From: Bacteroidota bacterium
GTDB taxonomy: Bacteria > Bacteroidota > Ignavibacteria > UBA10030 > UBA6906
Assembly: GCA_017860635.1 (NCBI GenBank)
Contig: JAGDMK010000025.1
Coordinates: 1 to 36,580, forward strand
Length of the DNA: 36,580 nucleotides
Reading direction: 5' to 3'
The position numbers were made by a program, and so were the translations under genes. The notes beneath the pieces were generated by a model, which saw only the letters and a list, made by a program, of their open reading frames with translations, had not been told where the DNA came from and did not search any database. Below are positions 11,828 to 25,260 of the stretch, one piece after another; within the stretch, counting starts at the first letter, position 1; every line of letters begins with the position of its first letter.

Positions 11828-13018
11828 CTACACCTTTCGTGAGCGTTTTCCGAGTGCTGCGGTGATCTCCTTGCGCAGCCGTCTGAGGATTGCCAAATCC
11901 TCCTCGATCAGCGAGAGCATGGCCCGTCGTTGCTGCCTGGTCTTGCTCCCGCGGAGGACGCGCTGGCGTGTGAAGTGATCCATGAGGGTGAGTGCCACCA
12001 TGGATTCTGCAACAGGGACGATGCGGGGACAGATGCATGGATCATGCCTTCCCTGAACGGAGATGCGCGCCGGACGGCCGTCGACCGTGGTTGTGTCCTG
12101 CATCTTCCGGATGGAAGAGGTCGGCTTGACAGCGATCCGCATGATGAGATCCTCGCCGGTGGAGATTCCTCCTGCCATCCCGCCGGCATTGTTTGTCCGG
12201 CTCCGGACGCGCCGCGCGGACGCATCAAAATAAAGGGGATCATTGTTCTCGCTTCCCCTGAGCCGCGCCCCTGCGAAGCCGTTCCCGAACTCCACACCTT
12301 TCACCGCTCCAACGGACATGAGCGCATGCGCGAGATCGGCTCCCAGCTTGTCGAACACCGGTTCGCCCAGTCCCACAGGCATGTTGCGCACACGGATCTC
12401 GACGATGCCGCCCACGGAGTCGCCTTCGTCGCGGGCTCGCATGATTGCGCCCGCCATTTCTTCAGCGGCGCGACTGTCCGCGCAGCGCAGCGGATTTTGT
12501 TCAATGACAGATTCGTCAAACTCCCGCGCCGCAATCCCCGCGACTTCCACCGTGTACCCGATGATGTCGATTCCACGTGCGGCAAGGAAGCTCTTTGCAA
12601 GCGCGCCGGCCGCCACCCGCGCCACCGTCTCGCGTCCGGACGATCTCCCCCCTCCACGGTAGTCCGCAATGCCGTACTTGGCCAGGTAGGTATGGCCTGC
12701 GTGACCCGGACGGAACATCGCCTTGATCTTCTCGTACGCCATCGGACGCTGGTCTGTGTTGCGGATGATCATACAGATCGGCATGCCGGTGGTTTTTCCT
12801 TCGAACAAACCGCTGAGCACCTCCACCCTGTCCGGTTCCCTGCGTGGCGTCGTGAGCGTACTCTGTCCCGGGCGGCGCCGGTCGAGTTCCTTCTGGATCG
12901 CCGCGACATCAAAGCGCATCCCCGGCCGTACGCCGTCGAGAACCACGCCCAGTGCGGGCCCGTGGCTTTCGCCGAATGTCGTGATGCGCACATGTGTTCC
13001 AAATGAATTGCCGGCCAT
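11828..13018 (-). CDS. aroC: Chorismate synthase
   Basis: MAGNSFGTHVRITTFGESHGPALGVVLDGVRPGM, RPGHAGHTYLAKYGIADYRGGGRSSGRETVARVAAGALAK, NNAGGMAGGISTGEDL. Confidence 0.98.
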   Translation of the reverse strand: MAGNSFGTHVRITTFGESHGPALGVVLDGVRPGMRFDVAAIQKELDRRRPGQSTLTTPRREPDRVEVLSGLFEGKTTGMPICMIIRNTDQRPMAYEKIKAMFRPGHAGHTYLAKYGIADYRGGGRSSGRETVARVAAGALAKSFLAARGIDIIGYTVEVAGIAAREFDESVIEQNPLRCADSRAAEEMAGAIMRARDEGDSVGGIVEIRVRNMPVGLGEPVFDKLGADLAHALMSVGAVKGVEFGNGFAGARLRGSENNDPLYFDASARRVRSRTNNAGGMAGGISTGEDLIMRIAVKPTSSIRKMQDTTTVDGRPARISVQGRHDPCICPRIVPVAESMVALTLMDHFTRQRVLRGSKTRQQRRAMLSLIEEDLAILRRLRKEITAALGKRSRKV

Positions 13019-13035: not shown

Positions 13036-14313
13036 TCAGGTGGATGATTGATGAGTGGACAGGCGGGCGAGCTCATCCCAAAACCGCGGATAGGATTTCG
13101 CCACACAGTCAGGAGTTTCCACAAGGATGCCGGGGACACGAAGTCCGATCACTGCAAACATCATTGCCAGCCGGTGGTCTTCATGCGGATCGAGCTGTGC
13201 TCCGTGCAGGGGAACGGGATGGATTTCAAGTCCGTCCTCTGCCACCCGGATGTCCGCACCCATCTGCGTGAGCTGTTCCGCAAGCGTCCCGAGACGATCA
13301 GATTCTTTGAACCGGAGGTGTGCGACGTTGCGGATCCGCGTCGGGCTGTCTGCAAAGAGAGCCACAGCCACGAGCGCCGGCACGGCATCGGGCATGGCAT
13401 TCATGTCGGCGTCGATTCCTCGCAGCGCTTCCTGCCGCTCAACCGCAACCTGCATCCCATCCCGCTGCACGCGGCACCCCATGCGTTGCAGGACTTCGAG
13501 GAATCCCGCATCACCCTGCATGGAGTCCGGCGCCAGGTGCGGCACGGCAACAGGTCCGCCACACAGCGCGGCGGCGGCGAATGGGTACGTTGCACTGGAT
13601 GCATCGGCCTCGATCTGGTATGCCGCTGCCCGGTACCGGGCACCGGCAGAGATCTCGAACCGGGAATCCCGGACACGCACACCGACGCCAAATGAATTCA
13701 TCACGCGAATCGTCATCGTTACGTAGGGTGCGGACGGGAGGCTCCCCGGCACGTCGAGCATGAGCTCTCGCTCCAAACCGGGCGACGCCAGCAGGAGGGA
13801 GGAGACAAATTGAGAACTCTGCTCACCGCTCACACTCGCCGCACCGCCGCGGAAGGTTCCGCCGTGAACGACGTACCGTGATGCATGCGGCTGGAATTCA
13901 ACATGCACACCCAGACCGGTCAGCGCGTCGATGAGCGGAGTGATTGGCCGGAGGGCCATGCGCGGAGATCCCTCAAACACGGTCGTGCCCGTTGCCCGGG
14001 CCGCAACAGACAACAGAAAGCGCAATGTCGTCCCTGCATTGCCGACAGGGATGGGATACTTCGGCGCGTAGAGCCGCCCACCCGTGCCGTGAACAGTCAG
14101 GCCGTCTCCGGAACGCACAGCCAGCACACCCATCTGATTCAACCCATTGATCATCATGCCGGTATCGGTGCTGTCCGATGAGTTCTGGATGACTGACTTG
14201 CCCTCCGCAAGCGCCGCACAGACCAGAGCCCGGTTCGTGATGCTCTTCGATCCCGGCACGTGCATGACTCCTTCGAGGCGGTCAACCGGCACTATGATTC
14301 GTGGGGAGGACAT
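13036..14313 (-). CDS. aroA: 3-phosphoshikimate 1-carboxyvinyltransferase (EPSP synthase)
   Basis: PGSKSITNRALVCAALAEG, VGNAGTTLRFLLSVAA, SSQFVSSLLLASP, RFKESDRLGTLAEQLTQMGADI, DHRLAMMFAV. Confidence 0.98.
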   Translation of the reverse strand: MSSPRIIVPVDRLEGVMHVPGSKSITNRALVCAALAEGKSVIQNSSDSTDTGMMINGLNQMGVLAVRSGDGLTVHGTGGRLYAPKYPIPVGNAGTTLRFLLSVAARATGTTVFEGSPRMALRPITPLIDALTGLGVHVEFQPHASRYVVHGGTFRGGAASVSGEQSSQFVSSLLLASPGLERELMLDVPGSLPSAPYVTMTIRVMNSFGVGVRVRDSRFEISAGARYRAAAYQIEADASSATYPFAAAALCGGPVAVPHLAPDSMQGDAGFLEVLQRMGCRVQRDGMQVAVERQEALRGIDADMNAMPDAVPALVAVALFADSPTRIRNVAHLRFKESDRLGTLAEQLTQMGADIRVAEDGLEIHPVPLHGAQLDPHEDHRLAMMFAVIGLRVPGILVETPDCVAKSYPRFWDELARLSTHQSST

Positions 14314-14319
14314 CTCCGT

Positions 14320-15810
14320 TCAGGTGCGGACCTTTCCGGTTCCGGGAGCGAGAGCGGCGGACGCGATCTCGAAGCGACGGCGGACCTGTGCAGCGCTCAC
14401 GCGGATTCCGGTCAGGAGGCGTATCTGCTCGACCGCCTGTTGTGCATACATTTCCACGCCGGTGATCACGACAAGCCCCCTGTCCCGCCCCATTGTCAGA
14501 AAACGGGTCATGGATGGATTGTAGATTGCATCGAAGACCAGACGGACTGTGGGGGGAATTGCGTCCACCGGAGTGTTCTGGATATCCGGCCACATGCCGA
14601 CCGGCGTTGCGTTGATGAGAATCTCAGGGTTGAGGTCATGGAGTTCAAGGAGCGGAGCCCACCCAACGCCGAGCTCTCCGGCCAGCGTCCGGGCGTGCGT
14701 GTCTGACCTGTTGACGATCACCACAGACGCACCCCGGTGTTTCGCCTCCGCTGCGATTGCACGCGCGGCCCCTCCCGCACCCACAATCACCAGCTTCTTC
14801 CCTGCCACCTTCATTCTCCGCTCGATAGCCACGAGAGCACCTTTGGCATCGGTGTTCGCGCCATGCCATCCAGTGCGCCTGTGCACCAGAGTGTTCACAG
14901 CGCCGATCGCCGCAGCCTCAGGCGAGCAGGAGGCACAATACCGGACCATCTCCTGTTTATGGGGAAGCGTGACGCTGCATCCCGACACCATGGGGCTGAC
15001 ATCCTTCATGAACCGCGCGGTGTCGACAACGGGAAACCGCACGTACACGCCGTCAAACCCCGCCGAGCGGTATAACGGATTGTGGATGTAGACGCCCTTG
15101 CTCTGTCCGACCGGATTCCCCACGAGTCCGAACACCTTTGTACGCCGTGTGCGCTCGTGCGCATGGTATATCGTATGCAGGATCCGGGCGGGCACTTGCC
15201 CGGGGGCAGATGGTTCTCCCTCTTCGGGAGCGGCATATGTTGCCCATCCGCCGAGCATTTTGTAGAGGACACGGCTGGCCTCGCCTGCCGTCCCCATGGC
15301 CAGCGCGATGGCGTGCTGCTTGTCCTTGCGGGCCAACTGCAGAAACATCCTGACCAGCGACAGTTGCCAGGCATCGTCGGCCATGAACGATAATTTCACA
15401 ACATCAGCGCGCACCGCGCGAAGCGCTCTGTACGTCCGGGGAATATCGGGAGGTTGCTGATCGAAACAATGTCTCGAGACAATCAGCCTGGTACGCACAT
15501 GGTGCGATGTGAGCAATGCACGGAAGTCCCGGATAGCATCGAGTTCTATGTCGACAAATGCCGCACCGGCCTTCGCGGCATCACAGAGGCGGTCAAGGCG
15601 TCCACGCTCATCACCTGCATACGTTCCTCCCTCACGCACCGGCCTGCAGGTCGCGATCCAGGGCTTACGACAGCCGCGGATCAAGTCCCCCACTGGACTG
15701 TCAGCAATCCGATCCAACCGGAATTCAACCATCTGTGCATAACGGGATGAGAGCCGGAGCTGTCTTCGGGCGTCCTCTGGAGTCGGTCCGGTGATGGCCA
15801 CGATGATCAT
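14320..15810 (-). CDS. aroDE: Bifunctional type I 3-dehydroquinate dehydratase / shikimate dehydrogenase
   Basis: N-terminal type I DHQase (VEFRLDRIAD, LIVSRHCFD, ADVVKLSFMADD, ALAMGTAGEASRV, SAPGQVP) fused to shikimate dehydrogenase (FGLVGNPVGQSKGVYIHNPLY, GCSVTLPHKQEMV, WHGANTDAKGALVAIE, VIVGAGGAARAIA). Confidence 0.95.
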   Translation of the reverse strand: MIIVAITGPTPEDARRQLRLSSRYAQMVEFRLDRIADSPVGDLIRGCRKPWIATCRPVREGGTYAGDERGRLDRLCDAAKAGAAFVDIELDAIRDFRALLTSHHVRTRLIVSRHCFDQQPPDIPRTYRALRAVRADVVKLSFMADDAWQLSLVRMFLQLARKDKQHAIALAMGTAGEASRVLYKMLGGWATYAAPEEGEPSAPGQVPARILHTIYHAHERTRRTKVFGLVGNPVGQSKGVYIHNPLYRSAGFDGVYVRFPVVDTARFMKDVSPMVSGCSVTLPHKQEMVRYCASCSPEAAAIGAVNTLVHRRTGWHGANTDAKGALVAIERRMKVAGKKLVIVGAGGAARAIAAEAKHRGASVVIVNRSDTHARTLAGELGVGWAPLLELHDLNPEILINATPVGMWPDIQNTPVDAIPPTVRLVFDAIYNPSMTRFLTMGRDRGLVVITGVEMYAQQAVEQIRLLTGIRVSAAQVRRRFEIASAALAPGTGKVRT

Positions 15811-16876: not shown

Positions 16877-17617
16877 GTGCCGCCGGCACATGCAGAACCG
16901 TGCACTCACAGCCCCGATAGCACTCCCCTGGAAAAGCACCTCGTCCGTTCGATGTTTGACGCAATTGCGCACCGGTATGACCTGCTGAACCACATGCTGA
17001 GCGGGGGTGCCGATCTCTACTGGCGCCGTAAAGCCGTGGCGTCGCTCCGGGACCTGCGGCCGCGGAGGATTCTGGATGTCGCGACGGGAACCGCGGATTT
17101 TGCCATCGCGGCTCTCCGCCTCAAGCCGGACGAGGTGATCGGCGTGGACATCGCAGAGAACATGCTGGCCATCGGAAGAGCGAAGATCCAGCGGATGGGC
17201 GCCGGAGAGGTGATCCACCTGAGAACCGGCGAGGCAGAACACCTTGAGTTCGGGGACAATGCATTCGATGCGGCGATGGTCGCGTTCGGCGCCCGCAACT
17301 TCGAACATCTGCACCAGGGACTCCGCGAGATGCAGAGAGTGCTGCGGCCCGGAGGGCGCATCGTGGTGCTTGAGTTCTCCCGACCGACGGCCTTCCCGCT
17401 CCGGCAGCTCTATCTCTTCTACTTCCGGAGGATTCTCCCGCTCCTGGGCAGATCCATTTCGAAAGACCGGGATGCGTACACATACCTGCCGGATACTGTC
17501 ATGAAGTTCCCCCAGGGAGAGGAGTTCCTCGCCATCCTGAAGGAAGCCGGCATCCGTTCGCCACGCCAGCACCGACTGACGTTCGGCATCGTCACTATCT
17601 ACACAGGAGAAAAATGA
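16877..17617 (+). CDS. ubiE: Demethylmenaquinone methyltransferase (UbiE/MenG family)
   Basis: GTG start; [80 protein letters not shown]. Confidence 0.96.
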
Positions 17618-18459
17618 TCGCGCCAGCTGACCGCGTAATCCGCGTCGGACACAGTCCCGACCCCGATGATGCCTTCATGTTCTACGGACTTGCCAGCGGA
17701 AAGGTGAAACTCGAAGGAATCACCATCGAACACATGCTCGAGGACATCCAGTCGCTGAACGTCCGCGCCATGAAAGCCGAGCTCGAGGTCACGGCAATCT
17801 CGGCTCATGCGTTCCCCGCCGTAGCGGAACACTACTGGATCATGCGGACCGGCGCAAGCATGGGCGAGGGATACGGACCCGTGATCATTTCACGGAAATA
17901 CAGGACGCTGGAAGAGTTGAAGGGAAAGCTCGTAGGAACCCCCGGCCCCCTGACCACCGCAACGCTCCTCTTCCGCACATTTACGCAGGGCATCCGGCAT
18001 ATCGACATGCCTTTCGATGCCATCATGGAGGCGGTCGACAACGGAAGTGTGGACGCCGGACTGCTTATCCATGAAGGGCAGATCACCTACCAGTCGCTCG
18101 GGTACAATAAGATCCTGGACTTCGGAGAGTTCTGGGACGGAGAAACCGGCGGACTCCCGTTGCCGCTGGGACTTGATGTGGTGCGGAAGGACCTCGGCAT
18201 GAACCTGGCAACGATACTCTCCCGTGGATTGAAGGAGAGCATCGCCTACGGCTACGCCCATCAGGACGAGGCAATCCCTTACGCCATGCGATGGGGCCGG
18301 GGGATTGACTACGCGCTGGGCGAGAAGTTCGTGAAGATGTACGTGAGCGACCTGACGATCGACATGGGCGAAAAGGGACTGCGGGGTCTGCAGATGTTGT
18401 TCGCGAGGGCAGCGGAGAAAGGGGTGGTGCAAGAGGTCCCGACGATAGAACTTGTCTGA
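17614..18459 (+). CDS. mqnD: 1,4-dihydroxy-6-naphthoate synthase
   Basis: ATGA overlap with ubi[85 protein letters not shown]. Confidence 0.92.
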
Positions 18460-18693: not shown

Positions 18694-19791
18694 TTACGCC
18701 GCCTCGGCAGGGGGTGGATAGACGTTGAGAATCTCGTAGACCGTGTTCCGCTGCGCCGCCTCAAATCCCGCGTCGTGAATCATCCGGATGCACTCTTCAG
18801 TGTCTGTCGTGTTCACGAAATTCGCAGCCGCGTGCACATTCTCTTCCTGCAGTGTACCGCCGAAATCATCCGCACCGAAATGAAGCGCAATCTGCCCCAC
18901 CTTCTTCCCCTCCGAAAACCATGATGCCTGGATGTGCGGCACGTTGTCGAGATACAGGCGCGAGAGCGCCAGGATCTGCAGGTAGCGTGTCGGCGTCGCA
19001 TAGTGAGGAATGATCTTCTCCAGCGGCGTGTTGCCAGGTTTGAAGCTCCACGGGACAAACGCGGTGAATCCGTGATACTCATCCTGCAGCGCCCGCACGA
19101 CCTCGAGATGGTCGATGATGTCCTCGTCCTGCTCGAGATGGCCGTACATCATTGTCGCGGTGCTCTTGTACCCGATGCGGTGCGCCTCCCGCATCACGTG
19201 CAGCCAGTCGGCGCTGGTTCCCTTCCGGCTGCTGATCTTTCGCTTGACACGGTCGGAGAGGATTTCCGCTCCTCCGCCCGGCAGCGTCCGCAGGCCCGCA
19301 TCCCACAGTTGCGCAAGCACTTCGGGCACACTGAACCCCGAAACCTCAGCCATGCCCAGCACTTCCGATGTGGAAAAGAAATGCGGATGTATGGAGGGGA
19401 CCTCCCGTACCGTCCGCTCCACGAGTTCCAGATAGTAGCTCAGCGGCAGCGCCGGATTGACACCGCCCTGGAGGAGAACCGTCGTGACACCCCGTGCCGC
19501 CGCTTCTTTGAACTTCGCAATGAGATCGTCAACGCTGTGCGTGTACTCCCCCGATTCGCCGGGATGCCTGTAGAACGCACAGAATATGCAGTCAATCGTA
19601 CAGACATTTGTGTAGTTCGGATTGGTGTCGATCACAAACGTGACACGGGGATCCGGGTTGATCCGGAAGCGGACCTCGTTGGCTGCTTCGGCGAGGTCCA
19701 GAAGATCGCCCCGTTGGAGAAGTGCCAGACCTTCTTCCCGGGTCATGCGTTCCTGCTTCCGTATCTTTTGAAAAACCTGCTCCAGCGTCAT
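18694..19791 (-). CDS. mqnC: Cyclic dehypoxanthine futalosine synthase (radical SAM)
   Basis: Radical SAM motif CTIDCIFCAFYRHPGESGEYTHS, TTVLLQGGVNPALPLSYYLELV, TLPGGGAEIL, WFSEGKKVGQIALHFGADDFGGTLQEENVHAAA. Confidence 0.95.
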   Translation of the reverse strand: MTLEQVFQKIRKQERMTREEGLALLQRGDLLDLAEAANEVRFRINPDPRVTFVIDTNPNYTNVCTIDCIFCAFYRHPGESGEYTHSVDDLIAKFKEAAARGVTTVLLQGGVNPALPLSYYLELVERTVREVPSIHPHFFSTSEVLGMAEVSGFSVPEVLAQLWDAGLRTLPGGGAEILSDRVKRKISSRKGTSADWLHVMREAHRIGYKSTATMMYGHLEQDEDIIDHLEVVRALQDEYHGFTAFVPWSFKPGNTPLEKIIPHYATPTRYLQILALSRLYLDNVPHIQASWFSEGKKVGQIALHFGADDFGGTLQEENVHAAANFVNTTDTEECIRMIHDAGFEAAQRNTVYEILNVYPPPAEAA

Positions 19792-19833: not shown

Positions 19834-21732
19834 TCACATCCTGCTGCCGGGCAGGTCGTTCCGCTCCGGGACCTGTCCCTCCGGCTGCTCGAGTTCACGC
19901 ACCATTCCCGCAAACCTCGTGATGGCTTCCCATTCCCGTTCGCCCAGCCGGTAGTTGAAACCGGTGAGGTACTCTACTGTCTCCATTTCCGTGAGGCCCA
20001 GACGCCGGCCGCTTGCTCCGGCGATCCCCGCGAGGTCCTCGTTGCTTTTCTCCAGAGACGCCTCGAGAGCCCGTGTGATCTGCGCTTTGGATTCCGCCGG
20101 CAGCGAACGCTTCGCAGCCCAGACAGCAAACACAAAGGGCAGCTTCTGCCATTCATACCATTCGCTCGCCAGATCGTAGATCAGGTCGAACCCGGCAAGG
20201 CCGGTCTTCTGATGCCGCAGCGCTTCGTCGCCGATGAGCAGGACGGCATCCAGTCCGGAGTGGTCATTCACACCCCCATGGAGCCGTTCGAAGCGCGCCG
20301 TGATGCCATATTTCTTTTCCAGCAGGACGCGGAGGAGGCGAACGGAGGTCGCGGTATCATCGATGATCCCGATCCGCTTGCCGTCCAGGTCGCGCCACCC
20401 CTCCTTCGAAAAAAGCATGACGCTCTTCACCTGGTCACGCGTGGCCAGACCGTATCCGATCGGTTCCAGTTGCTCTGCCTGCTCGACGTAGTTCATGACA
20501 GAGAACAGGCCGGCGTCTATCATCCCCTTCTCGCTCAGCATGCCCATCCGGCGGGGTTTGACCGGCAGCACTTTGTAGCCAGGGACATGGAGGTGCGCGT
20601 GGAACGCTATTGAGTTCAGGTACGGAATCTTCCCGATCACACGCTCCGCATGGAGATGGAGGGGATTATAATAGACATCCCGTTCGACCGGGATCTTCCC
20701 CGCCGCACGGATGATGCGGATGATCTGATCCTTCTTGAGCGACATCGGACTGATGGCACCGGCATCATGGGCGATTTTTTCTCCCCCGACGGTTCCATCC
20801 ATGTCATCCGCGCCGAAGTTGAGTGCGACGCCGGCCACCTCCTCCGTCAGCATCACCCAGTACGCCTTGATGTGCGGGAAGTTGTCCAGCATGAGCCGTG
20901 AGACGGCAATGGTCTTGAGATCATCGATAGCCGATGTATGCCTGTGCGACGGTTTGATCCCCGTTGCGCCGGGCTGGAACGCAAGAGGGATGAATGTCAG
21001 GAAGCCGCCGGTTTCGTCCTGCAGCTCGCGCAGTTTCATCATATGCTGGAGCCGCTCTTCGATCGTCTCGATGTGACCGTACAGCATGGTGCTGTTCGTG
21101 GGAATGCCCAGACGGTGAGCAGTCCTGTGCACCTCGAGCCATCCCTTCGCGCCGATCTTTTGATTGAAAAGCTGTTTCCGCACCCGCTCCGAGAACACTT
21201 CCGCACCGCCGCCCGGCATCGTGCGCACGCCTGCCGCTTTCAGCTGGCGAAGCACCTCTTCAATGGACATTCTGAACTTCTTGTGAAAGAAGTCGATCTC
21301 CACCGCTGTGAACGCCTTTACGTCTGCGTCCGGGAGAGTGCGGTGCACCGACTCCACAAGATCCAGATACCGCTCCCATGGCCAGTCCGCCGGCATCCCT
21401 CCGGTGATATGCACTTCTTTGATGTCCGGCGTCAGCCGGTCCAGAACATCCCTGGCCGTCATCTCGTAGGCGCCGGCGGCGCCCTTCTTCACTGCGAAAT
21501 CGCAGAACTTGCACGACAGGACACAAATATTGGTATGTTCGATCTTCTGATTGAGGACAAAGTAGACGCCGTCCCCGCTCCGGGACTTCTGCACGGTATG
21601 GGCCATTTTGCCCAGCCCGATGATGTCCGGAGTCCTGTACAGGATGAGTCCGTCTTCCAATGACAGTCTCTCGCCCTTCTGGACTTTCGCCCAGACGGGC
21701 CCGAGTTCTTTATCTCTGAATGTGATGTCCAT
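19834..21732 (-). CDS. mqnE-mqnA: Fused aminofutalosine synthase (MqnE, N-terminal) / chorismate dehydratase (MqnA, C-terminal)
   Basis: aa ~1-363 (nt ~20644-21732): MqnE radical SAM CVLSCKFCDFAVKKG, VHITGGMPADWPWERYLDL, TMPGGGAEVFSERVR, GADDMDGTVGGEKIAHDAGA. aa ~364-632 (nt ~19834-20643): MqnA IGKIPYLNSIAFHAHL, LIGDEALRHQ, YDLASEWYEWQKLPFVFAVWAAKR. Single uninterrupted 632-aa frame. Confidence 0.93.
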   Translation of the reverse strand: MDITFRDKELGPVWAKVQKGERLSLEDGLILYRTPDIIGLGKMAHTVQKSRSGDGVYFVLNQKIEHTNICVLSCKFCDFAVKKGAAGAYEMTARDVLDRLTPDIKEVHITGGMPADWPWERYLDLVESVHRTLPDADVKAFTAVEIDFFHKKFRMSIEEVLRQLKAAGVRTMPGGGAEVFSERVRKQLFNQKIGAKGWLEVHRTAHRLGIPTNSTMLYGHIETIEERLQHMMKLRELQDETGGFLTFIPLAFQPGATGIKPSHRHTSAIDDLKTIAVSRLMLDNFPHIKAYWVMLTEEVAGVALNFGADDMDGTVGGEKIAHDAGAISPMSLKKDQIIRIIRAAGKIPVERDVYYNPLHLHAERVIGKIPYLNSIAFHAHLHVPGYKVLPVKPRRMGMLSEKGMIDAGLFSVMNYVEQAEQLEPIGYGLATRDQVKSVMLFSKEGWRDLDGKRIGIIDDTATSVRLLRVLLEKKYGITARFERLHGGVNDHSGLDAVLLIGDEALRHQKTGLAGFDLIYDLASEWYEWQKLPFVFAVWAAKRSLPAESKAQITRALEASLEKSNEDLAGIAGASGRRLGLTEMETVEYLTGFNYRLGEREWEAITRFAGMVRELEQPEGQVPERNDLPGSRM

Positions 21733-22094: not shown

Positions 22095-23882
22095 TCACCG
22101 CCACATCCGCTCCCACCGCTCGTCAACTTTCCTGCGGACGTCCTCCGTCATCGTGAGCGCCTTGGGATATCCGGTTTTCCAGGTAGCGTCTATACCCATA
22201 ACACCGGAGTAGACCGGACTGATCCCGATCAGCTCCTGCCGTGTGAAGGCGATGTCGCGCTCGCAGTCAAACCGCGTAAAGACTCCCCAGATATAGTTCT
22301 CGCGGTCCTGGATGTCCACATCCTCGCTCACCGCAGCGATCATCGTCACGCCAGTCAGTGCCGGGTGGCGGACCAGTGTTTCGATGATCCGCCGGCCTCC
22401 TTCCCGCACCTTGACCAGCAGCAGCGTTTCGTGCACGAACCGGCAATCCACGATCGCGCTGTCCGTTTCCTTCACCGCCCGGAGGGCATCGGGCGACGGC
22501 AGTTGCTGCCTGCGTCTGATCACCACATCGGGCCGGATTTTGCGGGTTGCATCCAGGATCATCTTGCTGCCGAGATTCATCGTATAGCTTGTGAAGTCAA
22601 GCGTGTCCAGAGGCACTTTGGGGATCAGCACAAAATCGTGGTGGGGATCGAAATGGTCCCTCACCTCCTTCATCACCTCATCGAAATTCCGGACGTTCAC
22701 GCCTTCGCTCACGAGGACCAGGGATTTGGTCAGCGCGAGCTGGGACATGCCCATGAGGCCGAGTGCAGTCTTCATCGCCTCTTTGCCGTACCGCTGGTCG
22801 ACGGCGACGACAAGGAGATTGTGAAAGCCCGCTTCGTAATACGCCCACATCGAGGTGATTTCAGAATGGATGAGACGGGCAAGCGGACCAAGGATCAGCT
22901 GCGTCGCATCGCCGAGAAACTTGTCTTCCATGGGGGGAATCCCGACGACCGTCGCGGGGTAGAGGGGATTCCGCTTCCGGGTTATTGCCGTCAGGTGAAA
23001 GACCGGATACTCCGCTGCATGTGAGTAGTGGCCGAAGTGATCGCCGAACGGACCCTCCATGCGGCGTTCGCCGGGGCGCACCACTCCCTCGAGCACGAAT
23101 TCTGCGTGGGCAGGGACATCGATGCTGATGGTCGCACCGCGCGTGAACTCCGTGCGCTTCCCCCTGAGGAATCCGGCAAACATGGCCTCGTCGATGTTCT
23201 CGGGAAGCGCAGCAATCGTAGCCATGAGCAGCGCGGGGTCGGTTCCGATGGCAACGGCGAGCTCGAGGGACTGACCCAGCTTCTCCGCCTGCACATGATG
23301 GAACCCTCCCCCCTTCTGGATCTGCCAGTGCATACCCGTTGTCGCAGCATCGAAGACATGCATCCGGTACATGCCCATGTTGCGTTTGTGCGTCAGCGGA
23401 TCGTAGGTAATCACCTGAGGCAGCGTGATAAACCTCCCCCCATCATCCGGCCAGCAGGTGAGTATCGGAAGCGTATCGAGGTCAGGTTGTTCGACAACCT
23501 GCCGGGCGAGACCGGTGCGGACGCGGGTGACGGGTGCCGAAAGGAATCTGCGTGCAAGCTTCCGGTGCTTCAGCACAGAGGCGGGACGGGGTGGAAGAAT
23601 ATCACCGAGAAATGCGATGAGCTCCTCACCCAGCTGCTCCGGATGTTTCTGAAGGGCCAGCTCGCAGCGCAGGTCGCTGGCCATCGCATTGACGAGGACC
23701 GGATAGGGCGAGCCTTTGACCTGTTCGAACAGCAACGCCGGACGGCGTTCACGGACGGCGCGGCGCGCGATCTCCGTGATCTCGAGATACGGATCCACCT
23801 CGTCATGCACCCGGTGAAGCTCCCCCACACTTTCCAGATACAGCGCAAAGTCTCCGATTGTCCGGAACGCAGCCGGGTTCAC
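22095..23882 (-). CDS. ubiD: UbiD-family menaquinone biosynthesis decarboxylase (MqnL-type)
   Basis: ORF 22095..24044; likely GTG start at 23882 preceded by GGAGG (VNPAAFRTIGDFALYLESVGELHRVHDEVDPYLEITEIARR...). UbiD motifs: WQIQKGGGFHHVQAEKLGQSLELAVAIG, EGPFGDHFGHYS, NPLYPATVVGIPPMED. Confidence 0.93.
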   Translation of the reverse strand: MNPAAFRTIGDFALYLESVGELHRVHDEVDPYLEITEIARRAVRERRPALLFEQVKGSPYPVLVNAMASDLRCELALQKHPEQLGEELIAFLGDILPPRPASVLKHRKLARRFLSAPVTRVRTGLARQVVEQPDLDTLPILTCWPDDGGRFITLPQVITYDPLTHKRNMGMYRMHVFDAATTGMHWQIQKGGGFHHVQAEKLGQSLELAVAIGTDPALLMATIAALPENIDEAMFAGFLRGKRTEFTRGATISIDVPAHAEFVLEGVVRPGERRMEGPFGDHFGHYSHAAEYPVFHLTAITRKRNPLYPATVVGIPPMEDKFLGDATQLILGPLARLIHSEITSMWAYYEAGFHNLLVVAVDQRYGKEAMKTALGLMGMSQLALTKSLVLVSEGVNVRNFDEVMKEVRDHFDPHHDFVLIPKVPLDTLDFTSYTMNLGSKMILDATRKIRPDVVIRRRQQLPSPDALRAVKETDSAIVDCRFVHETLLLVKVREGGRRIIETLVRHPALTGVTMIAAVSEDVDIQDRENYIWGVFTRFDCERDIAFTRQELIGISPVYSGVMGIDATWKTGYPKALTMTEDVRRKVDERWERMWR

Positions 23883-24436
23883 CGGAATTCCTCCTCCCGC
23901 CACCCGGGTGCACCGCGCAGTCCCAGAGTCCCGAGCAGTTTGTCCGTGAATCCCCCGACATAGGCGTCGACCGACTCCGGAACATAATAGAGCGGCGGCG
24001 AGATGGGCATGATGGTCGCCCCGTACCCTGAGAGCCGGGCGCATTGCTCAAGCGTCAGGGTTGAGAGAGGCGTTTCCCGTACGCAGAGAATCAGGGGGAA
24101 GCGCTCTTTCAGGCAGACCTGCGCCGTGCGCGTGATGAGGGTGTCCCCGATGCCCGAGGCAATCCGTCCGATAGTGGAGGTGGACGCGGGGAGGATGACC
24201 AGGCCGTCAAAACGATTGGAGCCGGATGCCGGCGGCGCGGTAAGGTCATCGTCAGAGAAGGTACGCTCGACGAACGGTGCGAGGTCCTTGTCAGTCATCT
24301 TCAGTTCGTCCCGCAGAAGCACCTTGCCCCACTTGCTGACGATCAGGTACTTTGTCGCAGGACATTTCTTCAGAAAATCCAGCGCGTACACCGCTCCGGA
24401 CGATCCCGTTATGCCAACCACGATCTTCATGTCCAC
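23879..24436 (-). CDS. ubiX: UbiX-family flavin prenyltransferase (MqnM-type)
   Basis: MKIVVGITGSSGAVYALDFLKK, VILPASTSTIGRIASGIGDTLITRTAQVCLKERFPLILCVRETPLSTL; GTGA overlap with ubiD. Confidence 0.95.
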   Translation of the reverse strand: MDMKIVVGITGSSGAVYALDFLKKCPATKYLIVSKWGKVLLRDELKMTDKDLAPFVERTFSDDDLTAPPASGSNRFDGLVILPASTSTIGRIASGIGDTLITRTAQVCLKERFPLILCVRETPLSTLTLEQCARLSGYGATIMPISPPLYYVPESVDAYVGGFTDKLLGTLGLRGAPGWREEEFR

Positions 24437-25260
24437 ACCCCCACGAACACCATTGCGAGTACAGCAAAACCTGCAACCGCGTTGATCCTGAAGAACGCAA
24501 GCTCGACATCTTCGGCTTTCTTCTGCTCAAGATAGAGCAGAGCTCCCGTGAGGAGGAGCAGCGGGAGCGCATACAGAGAGAGCCGGGTCTGCCAGAACAG
24601 AATGGCGAGCACGCCGAACGCCGCGAAATGAAGATATCCGGAGTACCGGAGAGCGCGTTCACGGCCAAACCGTGCCGGAAACGAATAGAGGGACTCTTTC
24701 CGGTCGAACTCTTCGTCCAGTGTCGCATAGATGATGTCAAATCCCGATACCCAGAGGAGAGTGTAGAGTGAAAGCAGAAGGGGCGTCAGGAGTCCGTCAG
24801 TCGAGGGCGATACCGCAAACCACCCGCCAAGAGGTCCCATCGCGAGCCCCATCCCGACACCGAAATGGGCCAGCGGCGTGAATCGTTTCATCGTGGGATA
24901 GACAAGGAACACGATGAGCGGGATCGGTGACAGCATGAAACAGAAGAAGGAAAGCAGGTAGGCGGACCCGAAGTACAGTGCAAGTCCGGCGGACAGCACT
25001 CCCAACGCCTCGCCGAGGTTCATTCGTCCGCTGGGCAGATCGCGCGATGCGGTACGGGGATTCCGGGCATCGATTCTCCGGTCGATGATTCTGTTCAGTG
25101 CGAACGCGACGGTCCGCGCGCCCGTTGCGGCAGCCACGACCAGCAGAACCGGCCCCCATCCCGGAAACGCGCCGCGCGACGCGAGAAAGACTCCTGCGTA
25201 CACCAGCGGCAGCGAAAAAAGGGTGTGTTCGATTTTGACGAACGAGAAGTACTTTTTCAC
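24427..25260 (-). CDS. ubiA: UbiA-family prenyltransferase (MqnP-type)
   Basis: VKIEHTLFSLPLVYAGVFLA, ALNRIIDRRIDARNPRTASRDLPSG, DIIYATLDEEFDRKESLYSFPARFG; multi-TM; adjacent to ubiX/ubiD. Confidence 0.94.
   Translation of the reverse strand: MKKYFSFVKIEHTLFSLPLVYAGVFLASRGAFPGWGPVLLVVAAATGARTVAFALNRIIDRRIDARNPRTASRDLPSGRMNLGEALGVLSAGLALYFGSAYLLSFFCFMLSPIPLIVFLVYPTMKRFTPLAHFGVGMGLAMGPLGGWFAVSPSTDGLLTPLLLSLYTLLWVSGFDIIYATLDEEFDRKESLYSFPARFGRERALRYSGYLHFAAFGVLAILFWQTRLSLYALPLLLLTGALLYLEQKKAEDVELAFFRINAVAGFAVLAMVFVGVWT

Follow-up and report, generated by a model that had tools for sequence, protein, structure and literature searches.

Does one reading frame in a member of the Bacteroidota encode two consecutive enzymes of the futalosine pathway and, if so, how did it arise and what does the joining bring? 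We addressed this question in a window of 36 580 nt (the whole stretch of DNA analysed, contig JAGDMK010000025.1), in which the original prediction, made from the sequence alone, had placed a 632-aa frame carrying aminofutalosine synthase (MqnE) followed by chorismate dehydratase (MqnA). The frame was recovered with exactly the predicted ends and was assigned to the minus strand, which the prediction had not given (Table 1). We conclude that it very probably encodes a bifunctional enzyme for the first two steps of the futalosine pathway, with a single origin from adjacent genes.

A single frame with MqnE-type and MqnA-type halves

Both predicted domains were found when the 632-aa protein was searched with HMMs. 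The N-terminal half, expected to be a complete radical-SAM enzyme with the motif CVLSCKFC, scored 465.7 bits against TIGR03700 and thus belongs to MqnE by the curated equivalog cut-off of 434.55 bits; NF006687 also matched this half, as a homologue only. The C-terminal half, expected to be a complete MqnA, scored 153 bits against PF02621 (gathering score 26), a model that alone cannot tell MqnA from MqnD. We assigned this half to MqnA because of its nearest solved relatives, its motif and the presence of a separate MqnD. Its sequence matches in the PDB were chorismate dehydratases, with MqnD absent among the listed matches, and the MqnD structure 2czl was a far weaker fold match to the predicted model than the MqnA structures. 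The junction, predicted near aa 363 with almost no linker, was located at aa ∼363–365 (nt ∼20 640), and the linker measures 5–9 residues in most fusions and is somewhat longer in those of family f15.

The top Foldseek match of the predicted model for the MqnE half was MqnE of Pedobacter heparinus (6xig/6xi9), which shares the whole radical-SAM fold and the motifs (266 bits over aa 12–358) but, unlike the fusion, is a stand-alone enzyme without an MqnA domain. The MqnA structures from Streptomyces (SCO4506; 2nxo/7ahr) and Deinococcus (2i6e) and the structure 6o9a share the fold and motifs of the C-terminal half, including the Asn of LN and LPFVFAVWA; these are likewise stand-alone, whereas the MqnA half of the fusion lacks a separate N-terminus and follows straight on from MqnE. 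No chain covering both halves was found among the solved structures listed by the sequence and fold searches.

In the alignment of 49 fusions, no variation was seen at the three cluster cysteines, in PGGGAE, YGH or ERD, or at the Asn of YLN; HIKAYW, LPFVFAVWA and the SV and TS motifs were invariant or nearly so. The YLN Asn (N373) is presumably catalytic, as reported for the Streptomyces MqnA. Loss of catalytic residues in either half, which the prediction had named as a finding that would speak against it, was looked for over these 49 fusions and was not seen. Judged from these motifs, both halves are ordinary intact enzymes.

Table 1. Features of the mqnEA locus and its neighbourhood (positions in the window)
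Feature	Position	Strand	Evidence or remark
aroC, chorismate synthase (substrate supply)	11828..13018	minus	PF01264, 454 bits
aroA	13036..14313	minus	TIGR01356, above cut-off
Fused aroD-aroE	14320..15810	minus	aroD and aroE models match the halves, below curated cut-offs
menG/ubiE methyltransferase	16877..17617	plus	TIGR01934, above cut-off
mqnD	17614..18459	plus	PF02621, 234.5 bits; identified as MqnD from its context and because BLAST shows no similarity with the MqnA half
mqnC, unfused	18694..19791	minus	TIGR03699, 452.8 bits, above cut-off; 42 nt downstream of mqnEA
mqnEA fusion ORF	19834..21732	minus	632 aa plus stop; ATG start; zero internal stops
MqnA domain (chorismate dehydratase)	19897..20637	minus	aa 366–612; PF02621; PDB matches 7ahr, 2nxo, 6o9a
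N373 of YLN motif (candidate catalytic Asn)	20614..20616	minus	invariant in 49/49 fusions
Junction, very short linker LHLHAERV	20638..20661	minus	aa 358–365; includes putative internal GTG (V365, 20638–20640)
MqnE domain (aminofutalosine synthase, radical SAM)	20662..21690	minus	aa 15–357; TIGR03700, Foldseek
CxxxCxxC cluster motif CVLSCKFC	21502..21525	minus	aa 70–77; the three Cys (C70, C74, C77) do not vary over 49 fusions
Menaquinone biosynthesis decarboxylase, UbiD family	22095..24044	minus	TIGR03701, 498.4 bits, above cut-off
UbiX flavin prenyltransferase	23879..24436	minus	TIGR00421, above cut-off
UbiA/MqnP-like prenyltransferase	24427..25260	minus	TIGR01475, above cut-off

Distribution and origin of the fusion

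Neither a stop nor a frameshift lies between the halves in the assembly itself, and one open frame runs across the junction in 46 of 60 near relatives, a few of these 46 being cut by contig ends. A stop or frameshift at about nt 20 640, the other finding that had been named as contrary evidence, was absent from all 46 relatives whose match spans the junction. With the source genome included, 47 fused genomes were counted in the order, and 58 of the 247 genomes drawn from the class had a stop-free frame over the junction (counted from the listed rows). All of these sequences come from metagenome-assembled genomes (MAGs), and the source genome is 88% complete.

The taxonomic mapping of other two-domain proteins, suggested as a check, assigned the fusions found to one clade of Ignavibacteria-type genomes. 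Within the class, the fusion was carried by the source order (families f1–f6) and by families f13, f15 and f16, and separate mqnE and mqnA genes were found in families f12 and f20 and in the pathway-bearing genomes examined elsewhere in the phylum. Outside the class the depth of the survey was uneven, other phyla being sampled from the best 80 matches; among these, the named records with the fusion were mostly Ignavibacteria or Ignavibacteriae, together with Bacteroidetes-labelled MAGs, one KSB1 and one Deltaproteobacteria, the last two of which may be wrongly labelled. Five loci from other phyla (L064, L084, L093, L118 and L119) gave the impression of an in-frame MqnE-MqnA fusion of separate origin, but their genes are parted by a stop, and the apparently fused long frames in G295 and G117 also turned out to be separate genes.

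In trees of the MqnE half and of the MqnA half, both quick searches without bootstrap, the fused proteins formed one clade with an SH-aLRT of 98 in each case, which argues for one old fusion event. Apparent splits within this clade (L054, L055 and L057) were contig edges or a frameshift. The split relatives closest to the fusions (members of the Chloroflexota, Acidobacteriota, Latescibacterota and other groups) carry mqnA immediately behind mqnE, and the two genes often overlap, either by 4 nt in an ATGA-type arrangement or over a longer stretch in different frames; in a few more distant split relatives the two genes are in the same frame and parted by a single stop. Because the split genes are adjacent and often overlap, their fusion is a small step; a small indel or the loss of a stop would suffice to join them and may have been what happened.

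Proposed function and alternative readings

That the fusion joins a producer and a consumer that are consecutive in the pathway, as originally proposed, is well supported by the intact motifs, the domain scores and the conserved frame. With both activities assigned from the enzyme families, the C-terminal MqnA domain would form 3-[(1-carboxyvinyl)oxy]benzoate by dehydrating chorismate. The N-terminal MqnE domain would add the adenosyl radical from SAM to this product and release aminofutalosine, from which the remaining enzymes, among them MqnC and MqnD encoded nearby, would make menaquinone. The protein arose once, when a small change joined adjacent and probably translationally coupled mqnE and mqnA, and has been kept wherever the pathway was kept within the lineage. 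Its main benefits are most likely production at a fixed 1:1 ratio and co-localisation.

A stronger reading is that the fusion was retained as a channelling machine, in which facing active sites hand over 3-[(1-carboxyvinyl)oxy]benzoate without releasing it. The joined steps are consecutive, the linker is very short and the fusion has long been conserved. Furthermore, AlphaFold with the 49-sequence alignment gave a pLDDT of 86 and a pTM of 0.86 over both domains, a pTM that would be unexpected for a 632-residue two-domain chain of unpredicted orientation and that points to a likely defined arrangement of the domains relative to each other. On the other hand, the fused pair are plain gene neighbours in the split relatives, and in family f8, which belongs to the same class, MqnA is joined to MqnC rather than to the enzyme of the next step. 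Since that fusion joins non-consecutive steps, channelling is weakened as a general reason for such fusions, and we regard it as unlikely to be what has preserved this one. It is similarly doubtful that the single chain channels the intermediate from the dehydratase to the radical-SAM site, in a lineage in which one polypeptide has carried the first two committed steps of menaquinone synthesis from before the main families diverged. Fusion by gene neighbourhood explains both MqnE-MqnA and MqnA-MqnC, and channelling, if it occurs at all, would have been acquired later.

The f8 fusion was found in four genomes of three genera (L142–L145; G061, G080, G089 and G071), where an MqnA-type domain with an FLN motif and an MqnC-like radical-SAM domain with CNVDCxFC share one frame of 689–738 aa. 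As in mqnEA, an MqnA-type domain is fused to a radical-SAM enzyme of the futalosine pathway, but MqnA is N-terminal and its partner MqnC-like, whereas mqnEA has MqnA at the C-terminus and MqnE as partner. The order mqnE-mqnA-mqnC was seen in many split relatives, so that MqnA and MqnC are gene neighbours although not consecutive in the pathway, and it is apparently gene order, not pathway order, that such fusions reflect. The sole MqnE-like protein found in f8 (neighbour loci L123, L144:239-1459, L145:3558-4643 and L143:3748-4818) lacks CxxxCxxC, yet retains 33–76% identity; aminofutalosine may be made there by one intact radical-SAM enzyme that does both jobs or that pairs with the degenerate one. 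In a Proteobacteria-labelled MAG (L093:2168-3931), mqnE has kept its motif and precedes a single 588-aa frame of MqnA plus a degenerate MqnC-like domain without CxxxCxxC, and another radical-SAM relative (L181) is located elsewhere in the genome.

The original prediction had also raised internal initiation at a GTG in the junction, which would additionally yield free MqnA and which has a GGAG just upstream in the window. This codon is GTG in 5 of the 49 aligned sequences (GTC in 16, GTT in 11, GTA in 5 and mostly Ile, Leu or Thr codons in the rest), even though Val is overall most often encoded by GTG (709 of 2117 codons), and a start there would leave almost zero residues ahead of the first MqnA strand. 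As the codon is not conserved, we rejected it as an MqnA start and consider its use very improbable. The remaining alternative, an assembly or sequencing error that deleted a stop between two genes, could be suggested by the MAG origin and by split homologues that often overlap or sit one stop apart, but it can be practically dismissed given that dozens of separately assembled genomes, all of one clade, share the same single frame.

Probable role in menaquinone synthesis and related fusions

The genomes tested from families f15 and f16 (G077 and G105) contained exactly two PF02621 proteins, MqnD and the fusion. Genomes of the source order had a third, divergent PF02621 protein, which in the source genome is the free paralogue C110 (302 aa; G000:C110:1247-1981, L136) with DFSG in place of YLN. 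Free paralogues of this kind, lacking the presumed catalytic Asn, occur across the order (L136 and likewise L138 and L139). Because such paralogues are also present in G029 and G043, genomes without MqnC and MqnD, they appear not to be tied to the futalosine pathway, and C110 was rejected as a separate free MqnA on the grounds of the lost Asn and of this occurrence without the pathway. This leaves the fusion protein as the sole chorismate dehydratase candidate detected in these genomes. No MenD above cut-off was detected in the 15 genomes tested. Given this single candidate copy and the absence of MenD, all menaquinone synthesis probably runs through the fusion.

The protein is a new arrangement of known enzymes. 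Titles and abstracts of the open literature, the part searched, contained no description of an MqnE-MqnA fusion, and an automatic domain-architecture listing in UniProt or InterPro is likely to exist already. A precedent is the bifunctional CofGH (FbiC-type) FO synthase, which carries related radical-SAM domains of a cofactor pathway in one protein; unlike mqnEA, it joins two radical-SAM domains of F420 synthesis and does not involve MqnA. Where annotation names the mqnEA protein after a single domain, MqnA would be recorded as absent. With two futalosine steps encoded by one gene, the fusion would help in vitro work on MqnE, for which the substrate has otherwise to be provided, and it suits tests of channelling into a radical-SAM enzyme. 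Having arisen only once, it is also a clean marker of its lineage. Moreover, the class contains two distinct fusions that are both built around the MqnA module, which separates gene order from pathway order as the cause of fusion.

Gene neighbourhood

Upstream of mqnEA are genes for a UbiD-type decarboxylase, UbiX and a UbiA-type prenyltransferase. The listed decarboxylase and UbiX ORFs overlap by 166 nt, and the true start of the decarboxylase is probably further inside its ORF, since the decarboxylase model begins at aa 68. To the left of the mqn genes lie aroC, aroA and aroDE, and the supply and use of chorismate are thus encoded side by side. Between aroDE and menG/ubiE, at about 15 811–16 800 on the minus strand, aroB is seemingly broken, its N- and C-terminal parts being in different frames with an estimated ∼30 residues missing between them; the break appears to be an assembly error or a real lesion. 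The fused aroD-aroE protein is a second bifunctional enzyme in this neighbourhood, of a type known elsewhere (NF006802).
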